DNA from: a virus
IMG/VR virus record: IMGVR_UViG_3300020451_001396
Span: 1 to 49,801 of that record
Reading direction: 5' to 3' (one strand)
Length of the DNA stretch: 49,801 bases
Made by a program: the position numbers and the translations under genes. The notes below the pieces were generated by a model. It was given only the letters and a program-made list of their open reading frames with translations. It made no database searches and was not told where the DNA came from. Positions 4,453-45,721 of this stretch are shown in pieces (position 1 is the stretch's first letter; each line of letters starts with the position of its first letter).

Positions 4453-7400
4453 TTATTGTGAGGTTGGAGTTGAAGTCTCTTCATCTTCTTCTTCTTCTAA
4501 TTGCGTACCGCATCGACCACTAAATACTAATTCTCCAAAATCATATTCGTCTTCAGGAGGCTCAACAGGAACAACAAGCACAGGATCGGTGCCTAAAGAT
4601 ATTTTTTCTGTAATCGTACCATTACCAGAATTATTAACCGCAAATATTTGTACTACAATATGCGGTTCTGTAGTGATATAGCCTAACTCTTGCAGAGCGT
4701 ATGAAAAACTAGCAGTTTCGGGATCCAATGTAAGGGCATTTGCATCTAATGCTATTCTTCGACTCGATACAAATCCCACATCATTTTGTCTTCTATACTG
4801 TATAATATATTGAGTAATTGCTGATGCTCCAATATTATTTGGTGCTGTCCAGCTTATATTGATTCTATCATCTGTTTCTGTAATAGCACTTCTATTTAAT
4901 GTCAAAGTAGCAACACTATCAGGAACATTGCTAGTAGGGGTAAGTCCGTCACTACTTAGTGAATACTGACCTTGACCAATAGAATTTACAGCAGCAACTC
5001 GGAAAATATATCTTTGATCATTTACTAGTCCTGTAATCAATAAACTATTGTCATTTGTAACTGTGTCGGGCACAGTAGTCCATATAACACCGTCATTTAA
5101 GCTATATTCAACGACATAATCTATAATCTGTGATCTGCCATCATCTCTAGGACTTGTCCATCTTAAAAATACGGAGCTATTACCTACAGAACCATTAACA
5201 TTTAATGGAGGTCCTGGAACACTAGGAGGTAGTGTAGGTGCAATACTAATAATCTTGCCCAATACATCAACCGTTAGTGTAGCTCCAGGTATGTAATCAT
5301 TATCGTGCATGCCTGACAAATATATGTGATCTGTAATAATACCGCTTGAATATGTATACTGATTAACTGAAAGATCTGCAACAACATCTAAAGTAGGAAA
5401 ACCAGACGGTTCAGAGTCTATGCTTTTTGACAAAGACGTTATAACATAAGGCTCTGTAGTATTAATAGTAACTTTACCTATTTGGTCCAAATCAAATCCC
5501 GTTGGAATAGTATTCAAAGAATCTATAAATCCACTATTAAACACACCTGTTGCATTACCGCTAGCGGCATTTGGAACATTAGCATCAATTTTAAATACTG
5601 GTGTCAATCCGCTAGGTAATAATCCGTTTGCAGGATCTGCATCGTGCAACTCAGGAACATATCTGTTATATAATGTTGAAGTACGACCGTAAACAGCAAA
5701 GTCAATATTTTCACCAACAGCATTAAAATGAGTATGCTCCATGGGTCTAGTACTAAGAATATTTTTAGAACTAGGTCTAAAGCTAAATAAAGCCTGTTCA
5801 TCATCAAGAGCAAAAATATCAGATCCAGAACAATTAAATCCACTAACAGCAGGAGGATCTTGAGCAAAAAGACCGTAACCTAAACCATTTGTTAAAGTTG
5901 CAGATCTAGTAATAGAATACATAATACCTGTAAACATAGGTTCAGATTCACCTGATGTTCCATCTGTTGCATTTGCTAAAATCTTTGGACATACATGTGT
6001 AAATATAGCATCATCATCATCCGGGTCTGTAAAAAACATCGGAGGATGATCAATATAAAGAGCATCAGGCCCATCAAAAGGTCCTGATAGATTCTGTGCC
6101 AGTTTGACATACTCTACTTCAAAATCTCCAGTGTGCATAATAGCAACAGTGTCACCAAATTTATATTCAGTAGGTAAGTCCTCGTCTATGTCTGGTAATC
6201 CGCTAGCTACTCCGCCTATTAAACCTCCAACAGTTTCTGGGTCTACAAATTTAATTCGTTTACCAGCAACATTAACTTCAACTAATCTTTTTTCAAATCT
6301 GTCATAGGTTAATCCTTCTGATTCTAAATATTTATTTAATTCAAATCTTAAAGGCCCAGATCCTTGATGTACTAAGAGCGAACCCTTTAAGCTATCAGAA
6401 TCTTGACCGACTTTAAGATTGGCAGCATCACTAACATGTAATAGTGTTTTTACTTCTATGTTATCGTCATTATATACTAAATTATTGTATGTTTTGATAT
6501 ACTGTAAATTATTTAAATATAAAGGACTTAAACCAGAAATATCCACTCCAGTAAATAGTATAGATTTATCGTCATCTACATAAGAAAGTTCTTCTACGCC
6601 AGAAGCTAAAGCAGAACCTGCCTTCATTAAAAATCCACCACTAGTACCAGCGACAAAATCCCTAATATTACCTTCTGGATCAGAAATTTGAAAATCTTCA
6701 GTAACTAAAGTAGTTAACTGCAACCCGCTCATTTGTACTAAGCCGGTAGAAATAATTTTAATTTCTCCATTAGCAGCAATAGTTACTTGGTCTGGAGCAA
6801 AACCTGTTCTATAATCACCAGCATATTTATTGCCAACAGCATCAATTTGTAAAGTAGGATTAGGACCAATAGTTAATCTGCCATGAGCAGAATCAACCAA
6901 TGATAAGGAATCAAAACCCGTAGTAGCATCAGCTAATATAGACACATCACTGTCGGAATTATTATGCAATTGAATAATTTTATTGCCATTAGCAGATGTA
7001 ACGTCTAAGCCTGAAGAAAGCAACGTCCCGCTAACAGCCATGTCTCCACTAACAAAGGTATCTCCTCCAACACTTAGTACCATGCCAGAAGGAGGCTCTT
7101 CTATGTTGATTAATACAGTATTAGCAACTGTAGCTTGTTCTTTATCGGCTTTAAAATAAGCAGATTTGTACCACTCATGCATATTTGGTATATAGTATTT
7201 AGCTAGTCTGCTTTTATTAATTATATATGTACTGCCCGCATCAAGTGTGATGTTATATGCTCCAAACTCGGTGATATTAGCTGGGTCTTCAGTTAATTCT
7301 GATCCACTAGGAGCACCATTGTGCAACCAATTGGAAAATCTCAGAGAGCTCATATAACTAACAAATGTTACCGGCTTGTCCGATTGGCCAGATTTTACAA

Positions 7401-10257
7401 CATATGTAAATGGAACAGTCCCACTCTTAAGAATGCCTCCTGTGTCATCCGTTTCCATATTCGAGTTAAAAATACCAAAAACATCTGTACCTGTAGCAAC
7501 GGCATTTAGAAAACCAGCATATTGAGCATTTGTAACTTCATGCTTGCCTATTCTATACAAATGAGAAACAGAGCCCAAATCGGGCTGTGATACCTGAGAA
7601 TAGGTGTTTGAAGATCTGTCATAAACATTTATGCTTGTCTCGTCTGAAATATTTTTAGGATTGCCAATACCAATAAAATCAAATTCTGCTACTCCAGTTA
7701 CATAAAAATTATCCACTAAACCATAAGTACTAGCTAATCTGAAACCTACTCCAGATGCTACTCCTGTAGAATGTAATTGCTCAAAAGCATTGAATAAATT
7801 ACCTGTAGTAGTAATACTACCACCAGCAACATATCTATTATCGGTGCTTCTGTGTTCACTGATATTATTTGCTATAAATTCAGCAGCATTGCCATTCTGA
7901 TCAAAAGTTCCGTAACTAGAAGGTTGACCATTAGTGCCTATAGTAGATAACAGTCCCGACCATCTTCCTGCGGCAGCATAGTCGTAATTCGCTGTATTAT
8001 GTCGTATTCCTGGACCATTTCCATTGCCTGAAGATATCAATCCTCTTAAAGGAACAAGATCCTCTACAGTTGCATAATCGTAATATTCCCCAGTAGTCAC
8101 AACGTTGCCTGAAAAACCACTTGGTCTGATGTCTAATGCTGGAATTTCTGCATCTGTATTGACTGTAAAACGAATTGGTTTTTTAGAGTCATTAAATATT
8201 GTTTCTCCATTAGGTCTAGTGCTTAAAACAATAGCAGTAGAATCATTTATTGATGATCTTTCTGGATCAACATATTTTTGTAATGTTAATATAAAACCCT
8301 TGCTGATAGAATGTACTCTTAAACCAGTAGTAGTACTAGGTGTTATTTGATCAGCAGTTACCATACTAAGAATTTCATCACCAGCATTTTTAATCATACT
8401 AACTACAGTTGTATACATCGGTGTTGGAACAGCATTTTCTATAGCTATCTGATCTCCAACACTAAACTCTTCTTGATCAGGTAAATCATCTAAATCAAAA
8501 AGTATCTGAGACAAACATCCTTCAGCTGGCCTTCTAGGATAAGCAGAATAGACTATATCACTATTGGTTTGAAATAAATCACTGACTTTTACTTCTGTCT
8601 CAACTAAACCTCCTGATGCAGTAGTTAGCAACCTGCCAGATTGAGCACTAATAATATTAAATCTGTTGTCTGTTGCATTAGCAGCTGAAACGTTACCACT
8701 AGAGTCTATGACTAGTAAATTACCACTAGCTAAATTAACGGTTTTTAAAGTATCTACAGACAACTCATTAGAAACATAAGCATTAAAAAAGTTAACACTA
8801 CTGTCAGGATTTCCTGTATATGATACGAAATCAATATTGTCTCCAGAAAATCTAATGTTTTCGCCTAATACGCCGACACTAGTTCCATTTAAATTAAGCG
8901 CAGACTGATTAGCTAATGTGGAAATTCTGGTTTCATTTGAATTAGTAATAAAAGTATTAACTAAACTACTACCACTAGCAACAGAAAAAGTTATTTGACC
9001 ACTTTCTGAACCATCTGTATAATCTAATACCTTACTAGCAATCTTACCATAATTAGTTTTGCTTTGAGTAGAATCTTTTGAAGAAAAAGTAAGAGTGCCT
9101 ATATCAGTATTATCTTCAATAATTTGTGTTGCTGGAGCATGATAGAGAGTTATATCTGCAGGATTACACGTTGTTCTATTTTCTATTCTTAATCCCTCAT
9201 CACAAGCAAAATTTACAAAATGAGCAAGTGTTTGAGGTCTTGATCCGGTAGGAATATTAATACCTAATCTACCATCATAAGAAAAGAAAAGATTACGACT
9301 TCCAGATTGATTACCAAAAAAGATAACATCTCCGCTGGAAGGTACTGAATATCCTGAAGGCATATTTAAGCCGACACTACCATCTGAACTAAATTGAAAG
9401 GTTTTATCAATACCAGTACCATGAATAATAAAATTACCACTATTAGAATATTGCTTATTAAAAATAGTATCCTGAGTAACATTACCACTAGTAGGCAATA
9501 CGGTATTGGCGGAAGACTCTGAATCAGAGCCAAATAACAATTTATTATTTGTGCCAAAAAATACATTAGAGCCACTAAATGTAGTGGCGTCTGCTTTATA
9601 TTGTAATTCTCCTGTTTCTCCACCAGGATCAGATTGTGCAGAATAGTTGAGTGATGAAAAGCTATTGCTTTTGTCGGAAACGGGTTCTTGAAGTAATACC
9701 CATTCTTTACCTGTTGAAGCTACTGTGGCATATCTACCAAGCCCCTCTAAAGTATAAAGCAATTTGTCTTCAGAATAAACTTTTAACTTTCCTAATTTAT
9801 TATTTATTAATTTAAAATCTACTATTAATGAAGGATTAGTTTTAGGACAAGGTAATTGTGCAGATATCTTGCCTTTTGTAGTATCCACTATATATATAGT
9901 ACGAACATTATCAACATTAAAGTCTTTATCTTTAACTATAACATTATTAAATGCTGTATTAAAATTATATTCATTAGCAAAAATATAGAATTCACCATCA
10001 TTAATATCTATTGCATTGCCATCAGAGCTAGAGTTAATTATTTTTTCTCTAACAAGATAGTAAGTATCTCCAGCCTTAAGCTGTGCAATACCTACTTCAT
10101 ATTGTTTAGATCCACTATGTCTAATTAAATAGGGAACATAAGCATTAACATGCTCAGCTTTAAATCCTTGATAATTAGACAAAACATTTTTTAATATAAT
10201 GTCTGTTTTAGTATTACATTGATATCCTATATTTTCAAAAACGTGAACATTATTCAT
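4453..10257 (-). CDS. Giant tail fibre/receptor-binding protein with half-swapped FGE-sulfatase domain and two FnIII domains
   Basis: The 1,934-aa protein has an ATG at 10257 with AAGG upstream. Long stretches resemble fibre shafts, with many short SGN-type beta units (residues about 200-740 and 1040-1670). Residues about 745-1036 carry both halves of a SUMF1/FGE-sulfatase domain in reversed order. The usual C-terminal half (YGTFDQNGNAAEF, then GFRLAS) comes first. The usual N-terminal half (GNPKN, IGKHEVTNAQYAGFLNAV, PVTFVSYM, FSNWLHNG, EWYKSAYF) follows. Residues about 1678-1890 are two fibronectin III domains, and the C-terminus is acidic (EEEEDEE). The FGE fold (C-type-lectin-like) is a known ligand-display fold in phage and DGR target proteins. 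Receptor binding is inferred; no catalytic Cys is evident. Confidence 0.75.
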   Translation of the reverse strand: MNNVHVFENIGYQCNTKTDIILKNVLSNYQGFKAEHVNAYVPYLIRHSGSKQYEVGIAQLKAGDTYYLVREKIINSSSDGNAIDINDGEFYIFANEYNFNTAFNNVIVKDKDFNVDNVRTIYIVDTTKGKISAQLPCPKTNPSLIVDFKLINNKLGKLKVYSEDKLLYTLEGLGRYATVASTGKEWVLLQEPVSDKSNSFSSLNYSAQSDPGGETGELQYKADATTFSGSNVFFGTNNKLLFGSDSESSANTVLPTSGNVTQDTIFNKQYSNSGNFIIHGTGIDKTFQFSSDGSVGLNMPSGYSVPSSGDVIFFGNQSGSRNLFFSYDGRLGINIPTGSRPQTLAHFVNFACDEGLRIENRTTCNPADITLYHAPATQIIEDNTDIGTLTFSSKDSTQSKTNYGKIASKVLDYTDGSESGQITFSVASGSSLVNTFITNSNETRISTLANQSALNLNGTSVGVLGENIRFSGDNIDFVSYTGNPDSSVNFFNAYVSNELSVDTLKTVNLASGNLLVIDSSGNVSAANATDNRFNIISAQSGRLLTTASGGLVETEVKVSDLFQTNSDIVYSAYPRRPAEGCLSQILFDLDDLPDQEEFSVGDQIAIENAVPTPMYTTVVSMIKNAGDEILSMVTADQITPSTTTGLRVHSISKGFILTLQKYVDPERSSINDSTAIVLSTRPNGETIFNDSKKPIRFTVNTDAEIPALDIRPSGFSGNVVTTGEYYDYATVEDLVPLRGLISSGNGNGPGIRHNTANYDYAAAGRWSGLLSTIGTNGQPSSYGTFDQNGNAAEFIANNISEHRSTDNRYVAGGSITTTGNLFNAFEQLHSTGVASGVGFRLASTYGLVDNFYVTGVAEFDFIGIGNPKNISDETSINVYDRSSNTYSQVSQPDLGSVSHLYRIGKHEVTNAQYAGFLNAVATGTDVFGIFNSNMETDDTGGILKSGTVPFTYVVKSGQSDKPVTFVSYMSSLRFSNWLHNGAPSGSELTEDPANITEFGAYNITLDAGSTYIINKSRLAKYYIPNMHEWYKSAYFKADKEQATVANTVLINIEEPPSGMVLSVGGDTFVSGDMAVSGTLLSSGLDVTSANGNKIIQLHNNSDSDVSILADATTGFDSLSLVDSAHGRLTIGPNPTLQIDAVGNKYAGDYRTGFAPDQVTIAANGEIKIISTGLVQMSGLQLTTLVTEDFQISDPEGNIRDFVAGTSGGFLMKAGSALASGVEELSYVDDDKSILFTGVDISGLSPLYLNNLQYIKTYNNLVYNDDNIEVKTLLHVSDAANLKVGQDSDSLKGSLLVHQGSGPLRFELNKYLESEGLTYDRFEKRLVEVNVAGKRIKFVDPETVGGLIGGVASGLPDIDEDLPTEYKFGDTVAIMHTGDFEVEYVKLAQNLSGPFDGPDALYIDHPPMFFTDPDDDDAIFTHVCPKILANATDGTSGESEPMFTGIMYSITRSATLTNGLGYGLFAQDPPAVSGFNCSGSDIFALDDEQALFSFRPSSKNILSTRPMEHTHFNAVGENIDFAVYGRTSTLYNRYVPELHDADPANGLLPSGLTPVFKIDANVPNAASGNATGVFNSGFIDSLNTIPTGFDLDQIGKVTINTTEPYVITSLSKSIDSEPSGFPTLDVVADLSVNQYTYSSGIITDHIYLSGMHDNDYIPGATLTVDVLGKIISIAPTLPPSVPGPPLNVNGSVGNSSVFLRWTSPRDDGRSQIIDYVVEYSLNDGVIWTTVPDTVTNDNSLLITGLVNDQRYIFRVAAVNSIGQGQYSLSSDGLTPTSNVPDSVATLTLNRSAITETDDRINISWTAPNNIGASAITQYIIQYRRQNDVGFVSSRRIALDANALTLDPETASFSYALQELGYITTEPHIVVQIFAVNNSGNGTITEKISLGTDPVLVVPVEPPEDEYDFGELVFSGRCGTQLEEEEDEETSTPTSQ

Positions 10258-28007: not shown

Positions 28008-29753
28008 TCACCATGTTGAAAGAGCAGATCTCTTCCACGTATTAGTTGCTACGCATACATATACGTAATCTGAGTCCCAAACAATCTCTCCTTTATTACC
28101 GGCAGCACTTGCTGAAGCTGGGGTATGATCATCTCTAATTCTAATACCGCTTGAGTTTATATCCAGTTTTTGGCTAGGAGAATTTGTGTTAATACCAACA
28201 TTACCACCAAAATAATTTTTAGCAGCAGTATTGTCTTGATAAACACCATATTCATTTGTCGGAGTTGTTCCACCAAGACCAGCGTCACCTAAATATAGCC
28301 CATAGTGATTTGTTATAGTATTGTTTGTTCCTTGAAAATAAGGAATAGTTTTAATGTCATATGCATTTGTAACAGTAACACCAGAAGCAGCACTGTTAAT
28401 AGATGGGTTACATCGAAAAGCTGCTACCTCAGCTAAAGTATTGGTACCATCTGTAGAATAAATAACAGGAACAGCATTAACTCCTATACAATATCCACCA
28501 TCAGTAGTTGATGCGCTCAAATATTTTTCTGCTCTACTATTAAGACCTACATGATAATAGGTTCCATCAGTAGTAGAATAAGCTCTGCCTAGAGAATTAA
28601 TGGTTCTAGAATATGTACTATTTGTTTTGTTTACCTCATAAATATGTAATTTAGAACCAACACTTCCGTCGCTACTGTTTCCAATTCTGACTGCGTCTAA
28701 AGAAGCATCGCAGAATAATAGATTTTCATCAGCATCGCCTTCTACTCTAAAATCGTAGTTACCACCGTCATCATTTATAATGACGTTACCGCCATCAAAA
28801 GCAGTAGAACCACCTTTAACTCTAAATTTATGAGAGCCGGGACTTGCAGTGCCAACAGCAACATTGCCACCGCCATAAGCTAATAATACATCATCATTTG
28901 TAAAGTAATTTAAAGCACAGCTATTTCCTAAACCAGCACTGTCCATTATTAACCAGTTATTACTAGTTCCTTCTGCTAATCCTTCAGCTTTAATACTAGC
29001 TTGATATGGATGTCTACCGATTAGTAAAGTAGAGCCACTTGGAGAAGCTGTGGGTATCATTACAGATTGACCACTAGCGAAAATCTGTTGACCAGAAGCT
29101 GCTGTTAATGTTGTATTACCATCAACGTCAAAAATTATTCTTTCATTGTTTGGTTCAAACGCTCCATTAGCTCCTATAATATTTGTAGTCTCTTTACCTT
29201 GATAGAATTTGACAGGCACACCTGACTCTCTACTGCCAATTAAAATTGTGTCTCGTAAACCTGTCTGAGCAACGCCGCTATTGCAATATTGTGCGCTGAA
29301 AACATTAACATTATCTTGATTACGAACTAAAAATCCTGCAAAGCTATAATCTAAATCTGTCTGTGACAGTATTGTTCCTTCGCTATTTGTTGCGTGTATA
29401 TGAAATTTAGTTAGTGGGGTGTTTGTACCAACACCGACCCTGTCTGTACTAGCATCAGCATAAATCAAATTACTATCACTATCGCCTTTTACCTGAAAAT
29501 CAATATTATTTTCATTAGCGTTTATAATATTAATACTACCAGATGCTACAAAACCATCTATAGACGTATCAAGACCACTATTGACAGGACTTAAGGAGCT
29601 CCAGGGAGTAGTTCCATCTCCTACCTTTAAAATATTATTGACCGAATCAAATCCTGGTTCACCAGCAGCAAGCACGGCGCCATTTGGGTTATTTATAGCA
29701 AGCCATTCTGTCTGATTGCCTCTACGGAAGCGTATTAAGCTGTCTCTGGCCAT
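28008..29753 (-). CDS. Tail fibre protein with Mtd-like N-terminus
   Basis: The 581-aa protein begins with the RFRRG...EW...AGEPGFDSV...LKVGDGTTPWSSL pattern (residues 7-53) of the Major tropism determinant N-terminal domain family, a virion attachment module. The middle is composed of short beta units with repeated VGVGTNTPLTKFHI-type motifs. The end has a GEIVWDSDYVYVCVATNTW motif found at the tip of many fibres. It lies just downstream of a paralogue at 29789-30559. Likely a receptor-binding or decorating fibre; the receptor is unknown. Confidence 0.8.
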   Translation of the reverse strand: MARDSLIRFRRGNQTEWLAINNPNGAVLAAGEPGFDSVNNILKVGDGTTPWSSLSPVNSGLDTSIDGFVASGSINIINANENNIDFQVKGDSDSNLIYADASTDRVGVGTNTPLTKFHIHATNSEGTILSQTDLDYSFAGFLVRNQDNVNVFSAQYCNSGVAQTGLRDTILIGSRESGVPVKFYQGKETTNIIGANGAFEPNNERIIFDVDGNTTLTAASGQQIFASGQSVMIPTASPSGSTLLIGRHPYQASIKAEGLAEGTSNNWLIMDSAGLGNSCALNYFTNDDVLLAYGGGNVAVGTASPGSHKFRVKGGSTAFDGGNVIINDDGGNYDFRVEGDADENLLFCDASLDAVRIGNSSDGSVGSKLHIYEVNKTNSTYSRTINSLGRAYSTTDGTYYHVGLNSRAEKYLSASTTDGGYCIGVNAVPVIYSTDGTNTLAEVAAFRCNPSINSAASGVTVTNAYDIKTIPYFQGTNNTITNHYGLYLGDAGLGGTTPTNEYGVYQDNTAAKNYFGGNVGINTNSPSQKLDINSSGIRIRDDHTPASASAAGNKGEIVWDSDYVYVCVATNTWKRSALSTW

Positions 29754-39753: not shown

Positions 39754-40009
39754 GGTTGTCGGCTACTATTTTAAAGAAAACAGCTTCATAAAGATGTTCT
39801 ACACCTTTAATCATGTCGTGGTGAGCTCTACATAATGTTATTCCATTATTAGTATCATATCTTAAGCCAGGACACTGTGCCCAGGTTTTTATGTGGTGAA
39901 CGTTTAACTTCTTCTTACTATTACATCCATGCCATTGGCATTTTCTTTTGTCCCTTGCTAAAACTTTTCTACGAAAATCTTTATACAAAGGATCTTGAAA
40001 GTTTCTCAT
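39740..40009 (-). CDS. HNH endonuclease
   Basis: The 89-aa protein has the HNH core: CQWHGC, LNVHHIKTWAQCPGLRYD, NNGITLCRAHHD. The two Cys pairs and the HH doublet are intact, with a basic N-terminus (DFRRKVLARDKRK). Its position near terL fits the known partnership of HNH proteins with terminase (as with HK97 gp74). The start overlaps the end of gmd by 29 bp. Confidence 0.85.
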   Translation of the reverse strand: MRNFQDPLYKDFRRKVLARDKRKCQWHGCNSKKKLNVHHIKTWAQCPGLRYDTNNGITLCRAHHDMIKGVEHLYEAVFFKIVADNHGRK

Positions 40010-40991
40010 CGCTATACAGCCTAATGTCTGATGTTACCATTTCTTTAACTAATTTATTAAATGTTATCTGTGGGGTCCAACCTAATTCTTTTTTGGCTTT
40101 ACTTGCATCACCCAGCAAATAATCTACTTCTGCTGGACGATATAGGTCAGGATCTATCTCTAGATGGTCTTGATAATTTAACCCTACAGAATCAAAAGAT
40201 GCTTGCAAGAAATCTTTAACGCTATGCGTCTCACCTGTTGCTATTACATAATCTTGAGCTTTTTCTTGATTTAACATCATCCTCATGGCTTCTACGTGGT
40301 CTTTAGCGTGTCCCCAATCTCTACAAGAGTCTATATTACCAAGTTTCAATTTACCATCTACTTTTCCGTTAATTAACTGACCTATATATTTAGTAATTTT
40401 TCTAGTTACAAAATTTTCACCTCGTTTCGGACTTTCATGATTAAATAAAATTCCACTACAGGCGTATAGGCCATAACTTTCTCTATATAGTTTTACCATT
40501 TGATGTGCAGCAACTTTAGCTACAGCATAAGGACTTTGTGGAGAAAAATCGGTATTCTCGTTCTGATACTTTTTGTCATCTTTTAATGTATAATTAGAAC
40601 CAAACATTTCGCTAGTACTAGCTTGATAGAATTTAATCGATGTGAAAGTATTTCTAATTGCCTCCAATATATTTACGACACCATAAGTATTAATACAAAA
40701 AGTTGTACTTGGTTGATTAAAACTAGTTCCTACATGACTTTGTGCTGCTAAATTATAAAATTCATCAGGCTCGTGCTTCAATATGGCATTGGTGATACTA
40801 GAAGGATCAGTCAAATCAAATTCTTGTAATTCGAAGAAAGGATGTCCTATTAAATCTTGTATTCTTGTGAAGTTGTTAGTACTGCTACGGCGATGTAAGC
40901 CTACTACATAATATCCTCTAGATAATAAGGAATTAGACAAATAGCTTCCATCTTGACCCGTAATACCTGTGACACATGCGACTTTATTCAT
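39981..40991 (-). CDS. gmd: GDP-mannose 4,6-dehydratase
   Basis: This enzyme converts GDP-mannose to GDP-4-keto-6-deoxymannose. The 336-aa sequence shows the NADP-binding GITGQDGSYL motif, catalytic STSEMFG and SPYAVAK (Tyr-x3-Lys), and substrate-loop ESPKRGENFVTRKI. Full length suggests an active enzyme. The start chosen is the ATG at 40991, because AGAGG sits 12 bases upstream; an ATG at 41003 abuts it. It overlaps the terminase-like gene by eight bases. GDP-L-fucose synthase, the next pathway step, is on the other strand at 42927. Confidence 0.93.
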   Translation of the reverse strand: MNKVACVTGITGQDGSYLSNSLLSRGYYVVGLHRRSSTNNFTRIQDLIGHPFFELQEFDLTDPSSITNAILKHEPDEFYNLAAQSHVGTSFNQPSTTFCINTYGVVNILEAIRNTFTSIKFYQASTSEMFGSNYTLKDDKKYQNENTDFSPQSPYAVAKVAAHQMVKLYRESYGLYACSGILFNHESPKRGENFVTRKITKYIGQLINGKVDGKLKLGNIDSCRDWGHAKDHVEAMRMMLNQEKAQDYVIATGETHSVKDFLQASFDSVGLNYQDHLEIDPDLYRPAEVDYLLGDASKAKKELGWTPQITFNKLVKEMVTSDIRLYSDEKLSRSFV

Positions 40992-41805
40992 TATTTGATA
41001 CATCCTCTGGAGTTAAGAAAGGTCTGTCCACAACACCATCTTCATATTCGTGATATTCTGCTAATTCTTGTCTTGATTTTTCCGTAGCGTGTTTTAAGAT
41101 TTCCATTTCCTTGCCTTCTCTTTCACGAATCTGCTCATCTTCTAACATTCGGATTAATCCTATCCAGCTACTTTTGCCATCTTCAATTCTTTTGATTCTT
41201 TGTTCTCTGGTTGCTTTAAGGTCTTTACTGATCTTTTGTTGCTCGTTTAAAAGTTTTGTATATTCGTTTGTATAATTAGCTATACTGTTTCTAGCAAAAC
41301 TTAATTGTGTCTCTAGATTCGTCAATCTTGGGATATCTCTTTGGTCTTCCGGTAAAGAATATTCGTCATCTACTCTTTTTTGTAATTTTTCGGTTTCCTT
41401 AATATGCCTTTTACGTTCTTTCATGCTTCTGTTAATTAAAATATCTATTGTAATAAACTGCTTAATCTGTAATTCCTCTGCTGGTAAAACATCTTCTCTA
41501 AACTGTTTTATTAAGTTTATCCAGGTGTTTTCAAAATATTCTAATTCCCCACTAGATTCATCGAATTGTTTCTTAATTTCGTTCCAGAAAGACTTAGCAT
41601 GTAGCTTTTGTCTAATGGTTTCATAATCCTTAGCATCTTCCGAATTGGCAAATATATTATTCTCTTCAATATATCTTTTAATCGGTGCTGTACTTCTATT
41701 TAGGTGCTCCGACATAGAATCTATATCTAGAATACCATAATTGTCCCTAATAAACTTTTCTTCTTCTAGGCTTAATTTCCCTCGTTTTTTTGGAGATTTA
41801 TTCAT
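40984..41805 (-). CDS. Probable small terminase subunit (HTH plus coiled coil)
   Basis: The 273-aa protein begins with a basic segment (KSPKKRGKLSLEEEKFI) and an HTH-like fold (IDSMSEHLNRSTAPIKRYIEE). Long helices follow (FWNEIKKQF, KRHIKETEKLQKRV, LETQLSFARNSIANYTNEYTKL). N-terminal DNA binding plus oligomerising coiled coil is typical of small terminases, and it lies four kilobases upstream of terL with only nuclease and gmd genes between. Other DNA-binding phage proteins would look similar. Confidence 0.5.
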   Translation of the reverse strand: MNKSPKKRGKLSLEEEKFIRDNYGILDIDSMSEHLNRSTAPIKRYIEENNIFANSEDAKDYETIRQKLHAKSFWNEIKKQFDESSGELEYFENTWINLIKQFREDVLPAEELQIKQFITIDILINRSMKERKRHIKETEKLQKRVDDEYSLPEDQRDIPRLTNLETQLSFARNSIANYTNEYTKLLNEQQKISKDLKATREQRIKRIEDGKSSWIGLIRMLEDEQIREREGKEMEILKHATEKSRQELAEYHEYEDGVVDRPFLTPEDVSNNE

Positions 41806-42729: not shown

Positions 42730-42930
42730 ATGGTATATAAAAAATGGTCCGATAGCGAGCTATCTTATATAAAACACCATTATCTAAAATATTCTGATAA
42801 AATTATTGCTAAAAACCTAAGCGAAATGACTGGACAGCAAATTACTTCTAGCATGGTAAGAAGGCAAAGACGCAATCTAAAGATAGAAAAATCTAAAGGA
42901 AGACCTAAAATGAAAAGGAACATAGAATGA
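42730..42930 (+). CDS. Small HTH (Myb/SANT-like) DNA-binding protein, 66 aa
   Basis: The start is the ATG at 42730 with AAGG seven bases upstream; the longer reading from 42682 has no such site. The sequence YKKWSDSELSYIKHHY then KIIAKNLSEMTGQQITSSMVRRQRRNL has a helix-turn-helix look with an SANT-like WSDSEL start. The C-terminus is basic with a GRPK motif. Its stop overlaps the fucose synthase start (ATGA). It may regulate the divergent promoters. Confidence 0.6.
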   Translation: MVYKKWSDSELSYIKHHYLKYSDKIIAKNLSEMTGQQITSSMVRRQRRNLKIEKSKGRPKMKRNIE

Positions 42931-43850
42931 ATAATATGGTATTATTAACAGGAGGTAATGGCTTTTTAGGCTCTAACGTAGCTAAAGAACTCATTGATTC
43001 TGGATATAAAGTATTTATTCCTAGGAGTGGGCAATTTGATTTGAGAAAAAAGTCTAATGTAGAAAATCTATTTAGTGTTATTCAACCCAATATTATTGTT
43101 CATTTAGCAGCAAAGGTGGGTGGAATTGGTGCTAATAAAGAAAATCCAGGGTCTTTTTTCTATGATAATATTATGATGGGTGTTAATCTAGTAGAATGTA
43201 GTAGAGAGTATAAGGTAGACAAATTTGTTCATGTAGGGACTGTGTGTAGTTATCCTAAGAACTGTTCTGTTCCTTTTAAAGAAGATGATTTGTGGAATGG
43301 ATTTCCAGAAGAGACCAACGCTCCTTATGGTATAGCCAAAAAAGCAATTATTACTATGTTGGAGGGATATAAGCAACAATACGGATTAAATAGTAATGTG
43401 TTGCTTCCTGTGAATCTATATGGTCCTGGGGATAATTTTGATGAAAATACTAGTCATGTTATCCCAGCCATTATTAAGAAGGTTAGGGATGCTCAGATAA
43501 AAGGGGAAAATGAGATAGTTTGTTGGGGAAGTGGAAAAGCTAGTAGGGAATTTTTATATGTAAAGGATGCTGCTAAGGGTATATGTGCATCTGTTAATAG
43601 TGATTTTAATGATCCATTGCCTATTAATTTGGGGGGTGGTGGAGAGATTACTATAAAAAGATTAGTTACCATTATATGTGAACATATGAGTTTTGCAGGA
43701 AAAGTGATATGGGATGATAGTAAACCAGATGGACAAATGAGAAGGTGTTTGGATGTTTCTCGGTGTAAAGATTTGTTGAATTGGGAAGCGAATACAGATT
43801 TTATTACGGGAATTAGAGAGACAATTGGATGGTATAAGACACATCAGTAG
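42927..43850 (+). CDS. fcl: GDP-L-fucose synthase
   Basis: This enzyme (GDP-4-keto-6-deoxymannose epimerase/reductase) makes GDP-L-fucose from the Gmd product. The 307-aa sequence has the LTGGNGFLGSNV nucleotide fold, HLAAKVGGIGANKENP, VGTVCSYPKNC with a Ser, APYGIAKKA (catalytic Tyr and Lys) and PVNLYGPGDNFD. Length and motifs are complete. It is coupled by ATGA to the HTH gene and 8 bp from glmS. Also called wcaG. Confidence 0.95.
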   Translation: MNNMVLLTGGNGFLGSNVAKELIDSGYKVFIPRSGQFDLRKKSNVENLFSVIQPNIIVHLAAKVGGIGANKENPGSFFYDNIMMGVNLVECSREYKVDKFVHVGTVCSYPKNCSVPFKEDDLWNGFPEETNAPYGIAKKAIITMLEGYKQQYGLNSNVLLPVNLYGPGDNFDENTSHVIPAIIKKVRDAQIKGENEIVCWGSGKASREFLYVKDAAKGICASVNSDFNDPLPINLGGGGEITIKRLVTIICEHMSFAGKVIWDDSKPDGQMRRCLDVSRCKDLLNWEANTDFITGIRETIGWYKTHQ

Positions 43851-43858
43851 GAGAGAAT

Positions 43859-45721
43859 ATGTGTGGGATAATAGCATATAAAGGTGGTGGTAGTGCTATA
43901 TTAAAAACTATCTTAGCGATGGAAAAACTAGAATACAGAGGGTATGATAGTACTGGTATAGCATATATAGAAGATAAGTCAATTAAGTTAGCAAAACAGG
44001 CTGGATGCGTTTCTGATTTAATGCATAAAGTTACATTAAGACCTGGTTCTAGATTGTGTATTGGTCATACTCGTTGGGCTACTCACGGTGGACCTTCTAA
44101 AAGAAATGCTCATCCTCATTTGACCAAAGATAACAGATTAGCTATAGTTCATAATGGTATTATAGAAAATTATGTTACTTTGAAGAAAGAGTTGAAGGAT
44201 AAAGGGTATGATTTTCTCTCAGAAACAGATACAGAGATTTTATTATATTTAATTTATGATCATTTTATGAATGATGGAGTAGACTTATACGGAGCTGTTA
44301 AGTTAGCATTGAGCAGAGTAGTGGGGGCTTATGCTTTTATTATTATAGATAGACATAAAGATGATGAAATAATATGTGCGAAAAAAGGAAGTCCTTTAGT
44401 TATAGGAATAGATAAAACAAAAAGGGATCACTATGTGGCGTCTGATACTTGTGCGTTTCCTGGTAATGTAAATGATGTAATTTATATTGAAGATGATACA
44501 ATTGTAAAAATTAATAATAGTATTGAAACATATGATATTACTAGAAATCAAATATCAAATCATGTAATCAAAAAAATTAAACAGGATTGGTTGAAAGCAG
44601 AAAAAGGTAAGTATGATTATTTTATGCAGAAAGAAATATATGAGCAACCTGTCAGTATAGGCAATTGCTTGGCTGGTAGGCTGGATGGATATAGAGTTGT
44701 TTTGGGGGGATTATTAGATAATAAAAAAGCTTTTAAGAAAGCTAATCATATTACTATTATTGCATGTGGTACAAGCTATAATGCTGGTTTATTAGGCAAA
44801 TATTATATAGAAGAGTTTACAAATAAAAAAGTTAGTGTGGAATATGCTAGTGAATTTAGATACAGGAAAATAAATAATATACACAAGAATGATATTGTGA
44901 TAGGTATCAGTCAATCTGGTGAAACTGCAGACACTATTGCTGCATTGAAGATGGCGAAACAGAAGGGGTGTAAGATTATTGGTATGTGTAATAATGTTAA
45001 CTCGTCTATTAGTAGACTAACAGATGGGGGAATTTATATTAAGGCTGGTTTAGAAGTAGGGGTTGCTAGTACTAAAGCTTTTAATAATCAGGTACTATCA
45101 TTGTTATTAATGGCTATGTGGATAGATCAGCAGCAAGAGGACTGGATTACTCATGCAGAGTTAAGGAAATATATAATTGGAGACATTAGTAAAATTGAAA
45201 ATAAAATTATAGCAACATTAAAGAACGATAAGCAAATTAAAAAGATAGCTAGGAAATATAAAAGCTATGAGAAATTTTTATTCATAGGAAGACAATACAA
45301 TTATCCTGTGGCTATAGAAGGTGCTCTTAAAATGAAAGAGTTATGTTATAATTATGCAGAAGGTTATGCTGCTGCCGAATTGAAACATGGTCCATTAGCT
45401 TTAGTAGATAATAAAACTGCAGCCGTAATTATTAATAATGATGTAAAACAACAAATCAAAATGAATTCTACAGTACAGGAAATAAAAAGTAGGGGAGGCA
45501 AAATTATAAATATTGATTATGCTAAGGCTACTGATGATGATATTCTTATAGAGCCAAATAGAATTATAGATGATAATATAATTATACCAAATATATGTTC
45601 ATGTCTAAGTCCAATGCTGGCAGTAATACCTTTGCAGTTGTTAGCGTATCATAGTGCAGTACTGAGAGGTAAAAATGTTGATAGACCAAGAAATTTAGCC
45701 AAAAGCGTAACAGTTGAATGA
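43859..45721 (+). CDS. glmS: Glutamine-fructose-6-phosphate aminotransferase
   Basis: This enzyme makes glucosamine-6-phosphate from fructose-6-phosphate and glutamine. The 620-aa sequence starts MCGIIAY, giving an N-terminal Cys nucleophile after Met removal. It has GHTRWATHG, HNGIIENY and SETDTE in the glutaminase domain. It has two SIS sugar domains (IIACGTSYNAG near 300, GISQSGETADT near 349, LKHGPLALV near 510) and the canonical DRPRNLAKSVTVE end. AGGAGA precedes the start. Its stop overlaps the acetyltransferase start (ATGA). Confidence 0.97.
   Translation: MCGIIAYKGGGSAILKTILAMEKLEYRGYDSTGIAYIEDKSIKLAKQAGCVSDLMHKVTLRPGSRLCIGHTRWATHGGPSKRNAHPHLTKDNRLAIVHNGIIENYVTLKKELKDKGYDFLSETDTEILLYLIYDHFMNDGVDLYGAVKLALSRVVGAYAFIIIDRHKDDEIICAKKGSPLVIGIDKTKRDHYVASDTCAFPGNVNDVIYIEDDTIVKINNSIETYDITRNQISNHVIKKIKQDWLKAEKGKYDYFMQKEIYEQPVSIGNCLAGRLDGYRVVLGGLLDNKKAFKKANHITIIACGTSYNAGLLGKYYIEEFTNKKVSVEYASEFRYRKINNIHKNDIVIGISQSGETADTIAALKMAKQKGCKIIGMCNNVNSSISRLTDGGIYIKAGLEVGVASTKAFNNQVLSLLLMAMWIDQQQEDWITHAELRKYIIGDISKIENKIIATLKNDKQIKKIARKYKSYEKFLFIGRQYNYPVAIEGALKMKELCYNYAEGYAAAELKHGPLALVDNKTAAVIINNDVKQQIKMNSTVQEIKSRGGKIINIDYAKATDDDILIEPNRIIDDNIIIPNICSCLSPMLAVIPLQLLAYHSAVLRGKNVDRPRNLAKSVTVE

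Follow-up and report, generated by a model that had tools for sequence, protein, structure and literature searches.

The giant tail-fibre-like open reading frame (ORF) of the window, as we call the whole 49,801-nucleotide stretch of viral DNA analysed here, carries an FGE-sulfatase domain with its two halves in exchanged order. Our explanation, to which we assign a probability of about 0.85, is that the domain is a genuine circular permutant, which was probably produced by duplication, trimming and re-cutting and which most likely forms a non-enzymatic adhesion bead in the fibre.

The two halves of the domain are exchanged in the fibre protein

The fibre ORF, which has two fn3 domains close to its C-terminus, adjoins the tape-measure gene and lies directly downstream of it (Table 1). 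The PF03781 profile (FGE-sulfatase/SUMF1, C-type-lectin fold) matched this ORF with a whole-domain E value of 1.3e-9, in two pieces and in swapped order. Profile positions 149-254 were aligned with window positions 7998-7732 and profile positions 35-111 with 7563-7288, both on the minus strand and in the same ORF, so that the canonical N-to-C order of the family was not met. When isolated, the window domain scored 38.6 bits (cut-off, 23.3), with both halves above chance. A preliminary description made from the sequence alone had proposed that FGE-sulfatase halves were swapped in a giant fibre; its residues, coordinates and motifs proved to be right, and the matches in canonical order that would have refuted it did not occur. 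A colinear C-N-K profile made from relatives only gave a single match, at 7998-7132 (E = 3e-57). Furthermore, profiles of permuted domains matched solved FGE-fold structures with the halves exchanged; in 5aoh, query positions 31-94 corresponded to chain residues 199-263 and query positions 179-263 to chain residues 78-163.

We divided the domain into four segments that form a ring, N-K-Y-C, and ran one HMM per segment over the examined loci. The segment motifs are NFVxVGD..AYxLxG (N), YxIPxxxEWYKAAYY (K), YWxYATQSD..GNG (Y) and ANFN..GFRLAS (C). An extra beta hairpin is predicted inside the N segment of the window, at approximately 7635-7585, and one other permuted domain (L105, G048) has an insertion of about 100 residues in its N segment.

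Table 1. Coordinates of the permuted domain, its segments and the surrounding tail genes in the window.
Feature	Position	Strand	Evidence or remark
Giant tail-fibre-like ORF, 1934 aa, no stops	4453..10257	-	carries the permuted domain
Whole permuted FGE-sulfatase-fold domain, Y-C-N-K, residues 723-1036	7150..8091	-	
Segment Y (YYDYAT...GNGNGP), degenerate in the window	7999..8091	-	7.6 bits, 2/2000 shuffles
Canonical C-terminal half (TANYDY ... YGTFDQNGNAAEF ... GFRLAS), now first	7729..7998	-	profile 149-254; segment E 9e-13
Junction linker, old C-terminus to old N-terminus	7681..7728	-	~16 residues in the window
Canonical N-terminal segment (DFIGIGNPKN ... IGKHEVTNAQYAGFLNAV ... FSNWLHNG), now second	7246..7680	-	profile 35-111; segment E 2e-29
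Segment K (YYIPNMHEWYKSAYF), closes the permuted domain	7153..7203	-	segment E 2e-4
Tail tape-measure protein, 2958 aa	10267..19143	-	phrog_28 1.9e-12, PF10145 4.7e-20

In a canonical chain, segment Y follows EWYKAAYY and precedes the ANY motif. The window has a degenerate copy of this segment (GEYYDYAT...GNGNGP) upstream of ANY, and no better place for it was found in the entire ORF. The corresponding segment of the 48%-identical homologue of the fibre (L109) scored 16.3 bits, which was reached by 0/2000 shuffles; that of the G048 homologue was not significant (131/2000 shuffles). Since neither the window nor L109 has a Y segment after K, both are read as Y-C-N-K. The window domain is therefore cut after EWYKSAYFK, some 30 residues ahead of the ANY loop, which moves its start from 8025 to about 8091. 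The cut had originally been placed in the loop before ANY, which is correct for most relatives but, on the evidence of segment Y, is about 30 residues too late here.

Nearly all phage relatives are permuted and the bacterial relatives examined are canonical

Neither the window domain nor the N-terminus of the fibre, used as single-sequence queries against viral contigs, gave any match, and tblastn searches of 50,697 named phage records were likewise negative. Relatives were therefore reached through the terminase and then by profile. The terminase search gave 80 related loci; PF03781 was present in 9 of 50 terminase-related phage records, and C preceded N wherever both halves were found. Profiles of permuted domains identified 253 viral relatives, from which 77 loci on 68 IMG/VR contigs were examined, and 473 relatives in bacterial genomes, from which 79 loci were examined.

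The phage relatives were C-N-K-Y almost without exception (CNKY in 67 ORFs, CNKYCNKY in 10, plus longer arrays), with a C-to-N junction that nearly always measured 8-22 residues and, in most relatives, 8-14. The bacterial ORFs read NKYC (53), NKC (16), tandem NKYCNKYC (14) and similar, and in the 79 examined loci those that began with C were fragments only. Among 394 genomes, about 200 from each of Planctomycetota and Verrucomicrobiota, none gave a colinear full-length permuted match; phages, as positive controls for the same profile, scored as high as 389 bits across positions 1-283, and the window scored 188.6 bits across positions 2-258. In one Methylococcaceae genome the match to the colinear profile spanned a tandem junction. 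The permuted form is thus widespread in large aquatic phages, and none was found among the bacteria searched. Relatives in both orders, which had been suggested as a check, were sought and found, with one intact domain in each order, as is required of a circular permutant.

The window comes from a linear contig of metagenomic origin, in which an assembly chimera or a frameshift could in principle exchange two halves. This is already refuted, because dozens of contigs assembled from different metagenomes show that order, and its probability is negligible. The order is also kept, within an identical layout, in the nearest whole-fibre homologue, which lies on another contig (G002) and is 48% identical across 1920 residues; it is consequently no accident of assembly.

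The permuted chain is predicted to form a single domain

AlphaFold2 (AF2) modelling of the window domain on 73 permuted rows gave a single domain (pLDDT 81.6, pTM 0.84), of which residues 1-35, where most of segment Y lies, were unreliable (confidence below 50). Two unrelated folds, the outcome named beforehand as refuting a permutation, were not obtained. A Foldseek search of PDB and BFVD with this model returned no significant match, and the sole sensible one was to CarF (5aoh; 71 columns, probability 0.21). Foldseek alignments are sequential, so the missing match is partly expected; it is not proof, however, and each half could have matched. Because nothing usable came from the search with the permuted model, a canonical control was run. 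The model of a canonical phage relative (L278) on 70 canonical rows (pLDDT 95.6, pTM 0.93) matched TvpA (2y3c, top match, E = 1e-11), CarF, PvdO and FGE. When the permuted and canonical secondary structures were compared residue by residue, agreement was 86% in the rotated register, against 34-48% when shifted, and 73% when only structured positions were counted. The claim of a circular permutation is therefore supported by profile order, by relatives in both orders and by a single-domain model with rotated secondary structure.

An improbable alternative is that the region consists of two adjacent truncated canonical domains, a C-terminal followed by an N-terminal fragment, left by the decay of a tandem array and not folding as one. 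Tandem arrays do exist in bacteria and phages, and the lack of a significant Foldseek match is compatible with such fragments. A stand-alone phage ORF of 315 aa (L085/L119), however, comprises one permuted C-N-K-Y domain and nothing else, which excludes truncated tandem copies as its reading. The unit also recurs in 68 contigs with a nearly fixed junction length, is modelled as one domain with matching secondary structure, and is under purifying selection (dN/dS 0.07-0.31 across four close pairs).

Tail fibres are usually oligomeric, and oligomers were not covered by the analysis, so halves from neighbouring chains of a trimeric fibre might instead pair and rebuild canonical domains. We hold this to be just as improbable: the monomer prediction already closes the fold, and a junction of 8-14 residues is as short as expected if all it must do is bridge close termini. 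That the old termini lie close in space in the canonical fold, as a circular permutant presupposes, is an inference with which both the short junction and the canonical domains found inserted in a loop are consistent.

All four rotations of the ring occur

One phage ORF (L181/L283, in G087) has the order K-Y-C-N. In another phage (L278, G051) a permuted domain is succeeded by a canonical N-K-Y-C domain (CNKY+NKYC), which shares up to 78% identity with Planctomycetota proteins, and in a third (L277, G053) a canonical domain is nested in a loop of a permuted one, at residues ~1014-1290 of a 3063-aa ORF. L285 and L286 are likely to be two further canonical phage copies. Together with C-N-K-Y and Y-C-N-K, these orders mean that all four rotations of the ring exist. 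Short "viral" contigs encoding canonical FGE proteins (L288-L303 and similar) were not counted as canonical phage copies, as their proteins end in PEP-CTERM-type signals and the contigs are probably misfiled bacterial DNA.

Origin of the permuted form

For a tree of 95 domains, N+K and C were aligned independently of each other, which kept segment order from influencing it. In this joint tree the permuted and canonical domains were split by one change, on a branch with an SH-aLRT support of 93. Both canonical phage copies fell inside the bacteria, and the window, G002 and G048 formed one clade (96). The trees of N only and C only, which were less resolved, required 4 and 2 changes, respectively; a single origin is accordingly favoured but not proven, and the permuted form probably goes back to a single event in the ancestry of large aquatic tailed phages.

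Tandem duplication and loss, the route put forward in the preliminary description, has indirect support only. Bacterial tandem FGE arrays (Methylococcaceae, Verrucomicrobiota and Planctomycetota; for example L202, L209 and L225) have C-to-N junctions of 6-18 residues, some of which resemble the phage junction (SVNPSNSADYE in the bacterial array L202, SLNPLNFS in the phage L119), and their internal unit reads C-N; as a whole, however, such an array begins with N and ends with C and consists of canonical domains. These intermediates are bacterial and are not direct ancestors. Among the phage copies the junction is common but the cut points differ. From these observations we infer a route in which a bacterial domain would have been duplicated in tandem (N-C-N-C) and then trimmed at its outer parts, leaving C-N once the leading N part and the trailing C part were lost. 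A short linker now joins the old termini, and the chain opens anew in the loop region that follows the EWYKAAYY helix; later re-cutting could have given the C-N-K-Y, Y-C-N-K and K-Y-C-N versions.

Function of the domain

FGE depends on a pair of copper-binding cysteines located in C2, a stretch of its C-terminal half. The window domain does not meet this requirement, since its C2 stretch contains no cysteine; C2 is likewise cysteine-free in 52/73 permuted domains, and two cysteines are present in only 3/73. Homology to FGE, CarF and EgtB-type proteins leaves room for an active formylglycine-generating or related oxidising enzyme, carried for catalysis and not for binding, but the scarcity of cysteines and the embedding of the domain in fibres, often in many copies (ten in G066), make this very unlikely.

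C2 was the most variable stretch, at 2.84 bits (N, 1.57; K, 0.90), and corresponds to the part that varies in the DGR lectin-fold proteins TvpA and Mtd. A DGR reverse transcriptase was found in 0/43 domain-bearing phage records, which may be fragments, and the explanation of the domain as a DGR target was dropped on this ground. Within the long tail fibre the domain most likely serves for adhesion, as a non-enzymatic bead formed by a single chain, although there are no binding data. From the fibre context and the variable C2 we lean towards a binding function, in which C2 would contact a glycan or protein of the host surface. The moved termini may present the lectin-like face differently, as had been supposed at the outset; this remains an inference.

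Other features of the window were recorded. Residues 567-695 of the tape-measure protein match the PHROG endonuclease family phrog_452 (8.5e-9), perhaps an inserted nuclease or intein-type domain. A 581-aa protein at 28008-29753(-) opens with Mtd_N, the N-terminal domain of the major tropism determinant (E = 2e-11), and is likely to be a second receptor-binding protein of the tail region. Sugar metabolism genes at 39981-41003(-) and 42927-45721(+) encode a GDP-mannose 4,6-dehydratase-like protein, an NAD-dependent epimerase and a SIS/glutamine amidotransferase protein resembling GlmS.

Discussion

The phage domain shares with the PF03781 family (FGE, SUMF2, PvdO, CarF, CalU17 and the C-terminal domain of EgtB) the match of both halves to the profile and to solved members, and the same predicted elements; it differs in that it is rotated, its old termini are joined and the cysteine pair is not conserved. 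TvpA of Treponema denticola, the top structural match of the canonical phage relative, resembles it also in where variability lies, but is canonical in order and a DGR variable protein; Mtd of phage BPP-1 shares the phage adhesin setting. FGE-fold DGR targets are known, including one ORF with three tandem paralogues (PMC3521204). The circularly permuted DNA methyltransferases of jumbo phages, natural permutants explained by duplication and loss of the ends, represent the same kind of rearrangement in a different fold, and the survey that describes them (PMC7824862) states that jumbo phages yielded no FGS (FGE) domains. We found no description of a permuted FGE/SUMF1 domain in the literature covered; as this did not extend to subscription journals and preprints, novelty is provisional.

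A wider reading, on which the balance is even, is that these domains constitute a phage-specific class of lectin-fold adhesins that occurs in all four rotations, has been re-opened repeatedly and expands by copy number and not by DGR. On that reading the chain would have been re-opened elsewhere again and again because a bead is suited to in-line insertion in a long fibre when its two chain ends lie away from the old base.

Natural circular permutation is usually known from isolated protein pairs; in the present case a single fold occurs in all four rotations, an unusually clear natural example of a protein fold that has been re-cut and re-joined. As arrays, permuted units and nested canonical copies occur together, the duplication-and-trimming model and the tolerance of the fold to re-cutting can be examined directly. 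The finding also points to an overlooked class of putative phage adhesins: order-dependent domain scores split each domain into two weak half-hits, and the jumbo-phage survey listed none.
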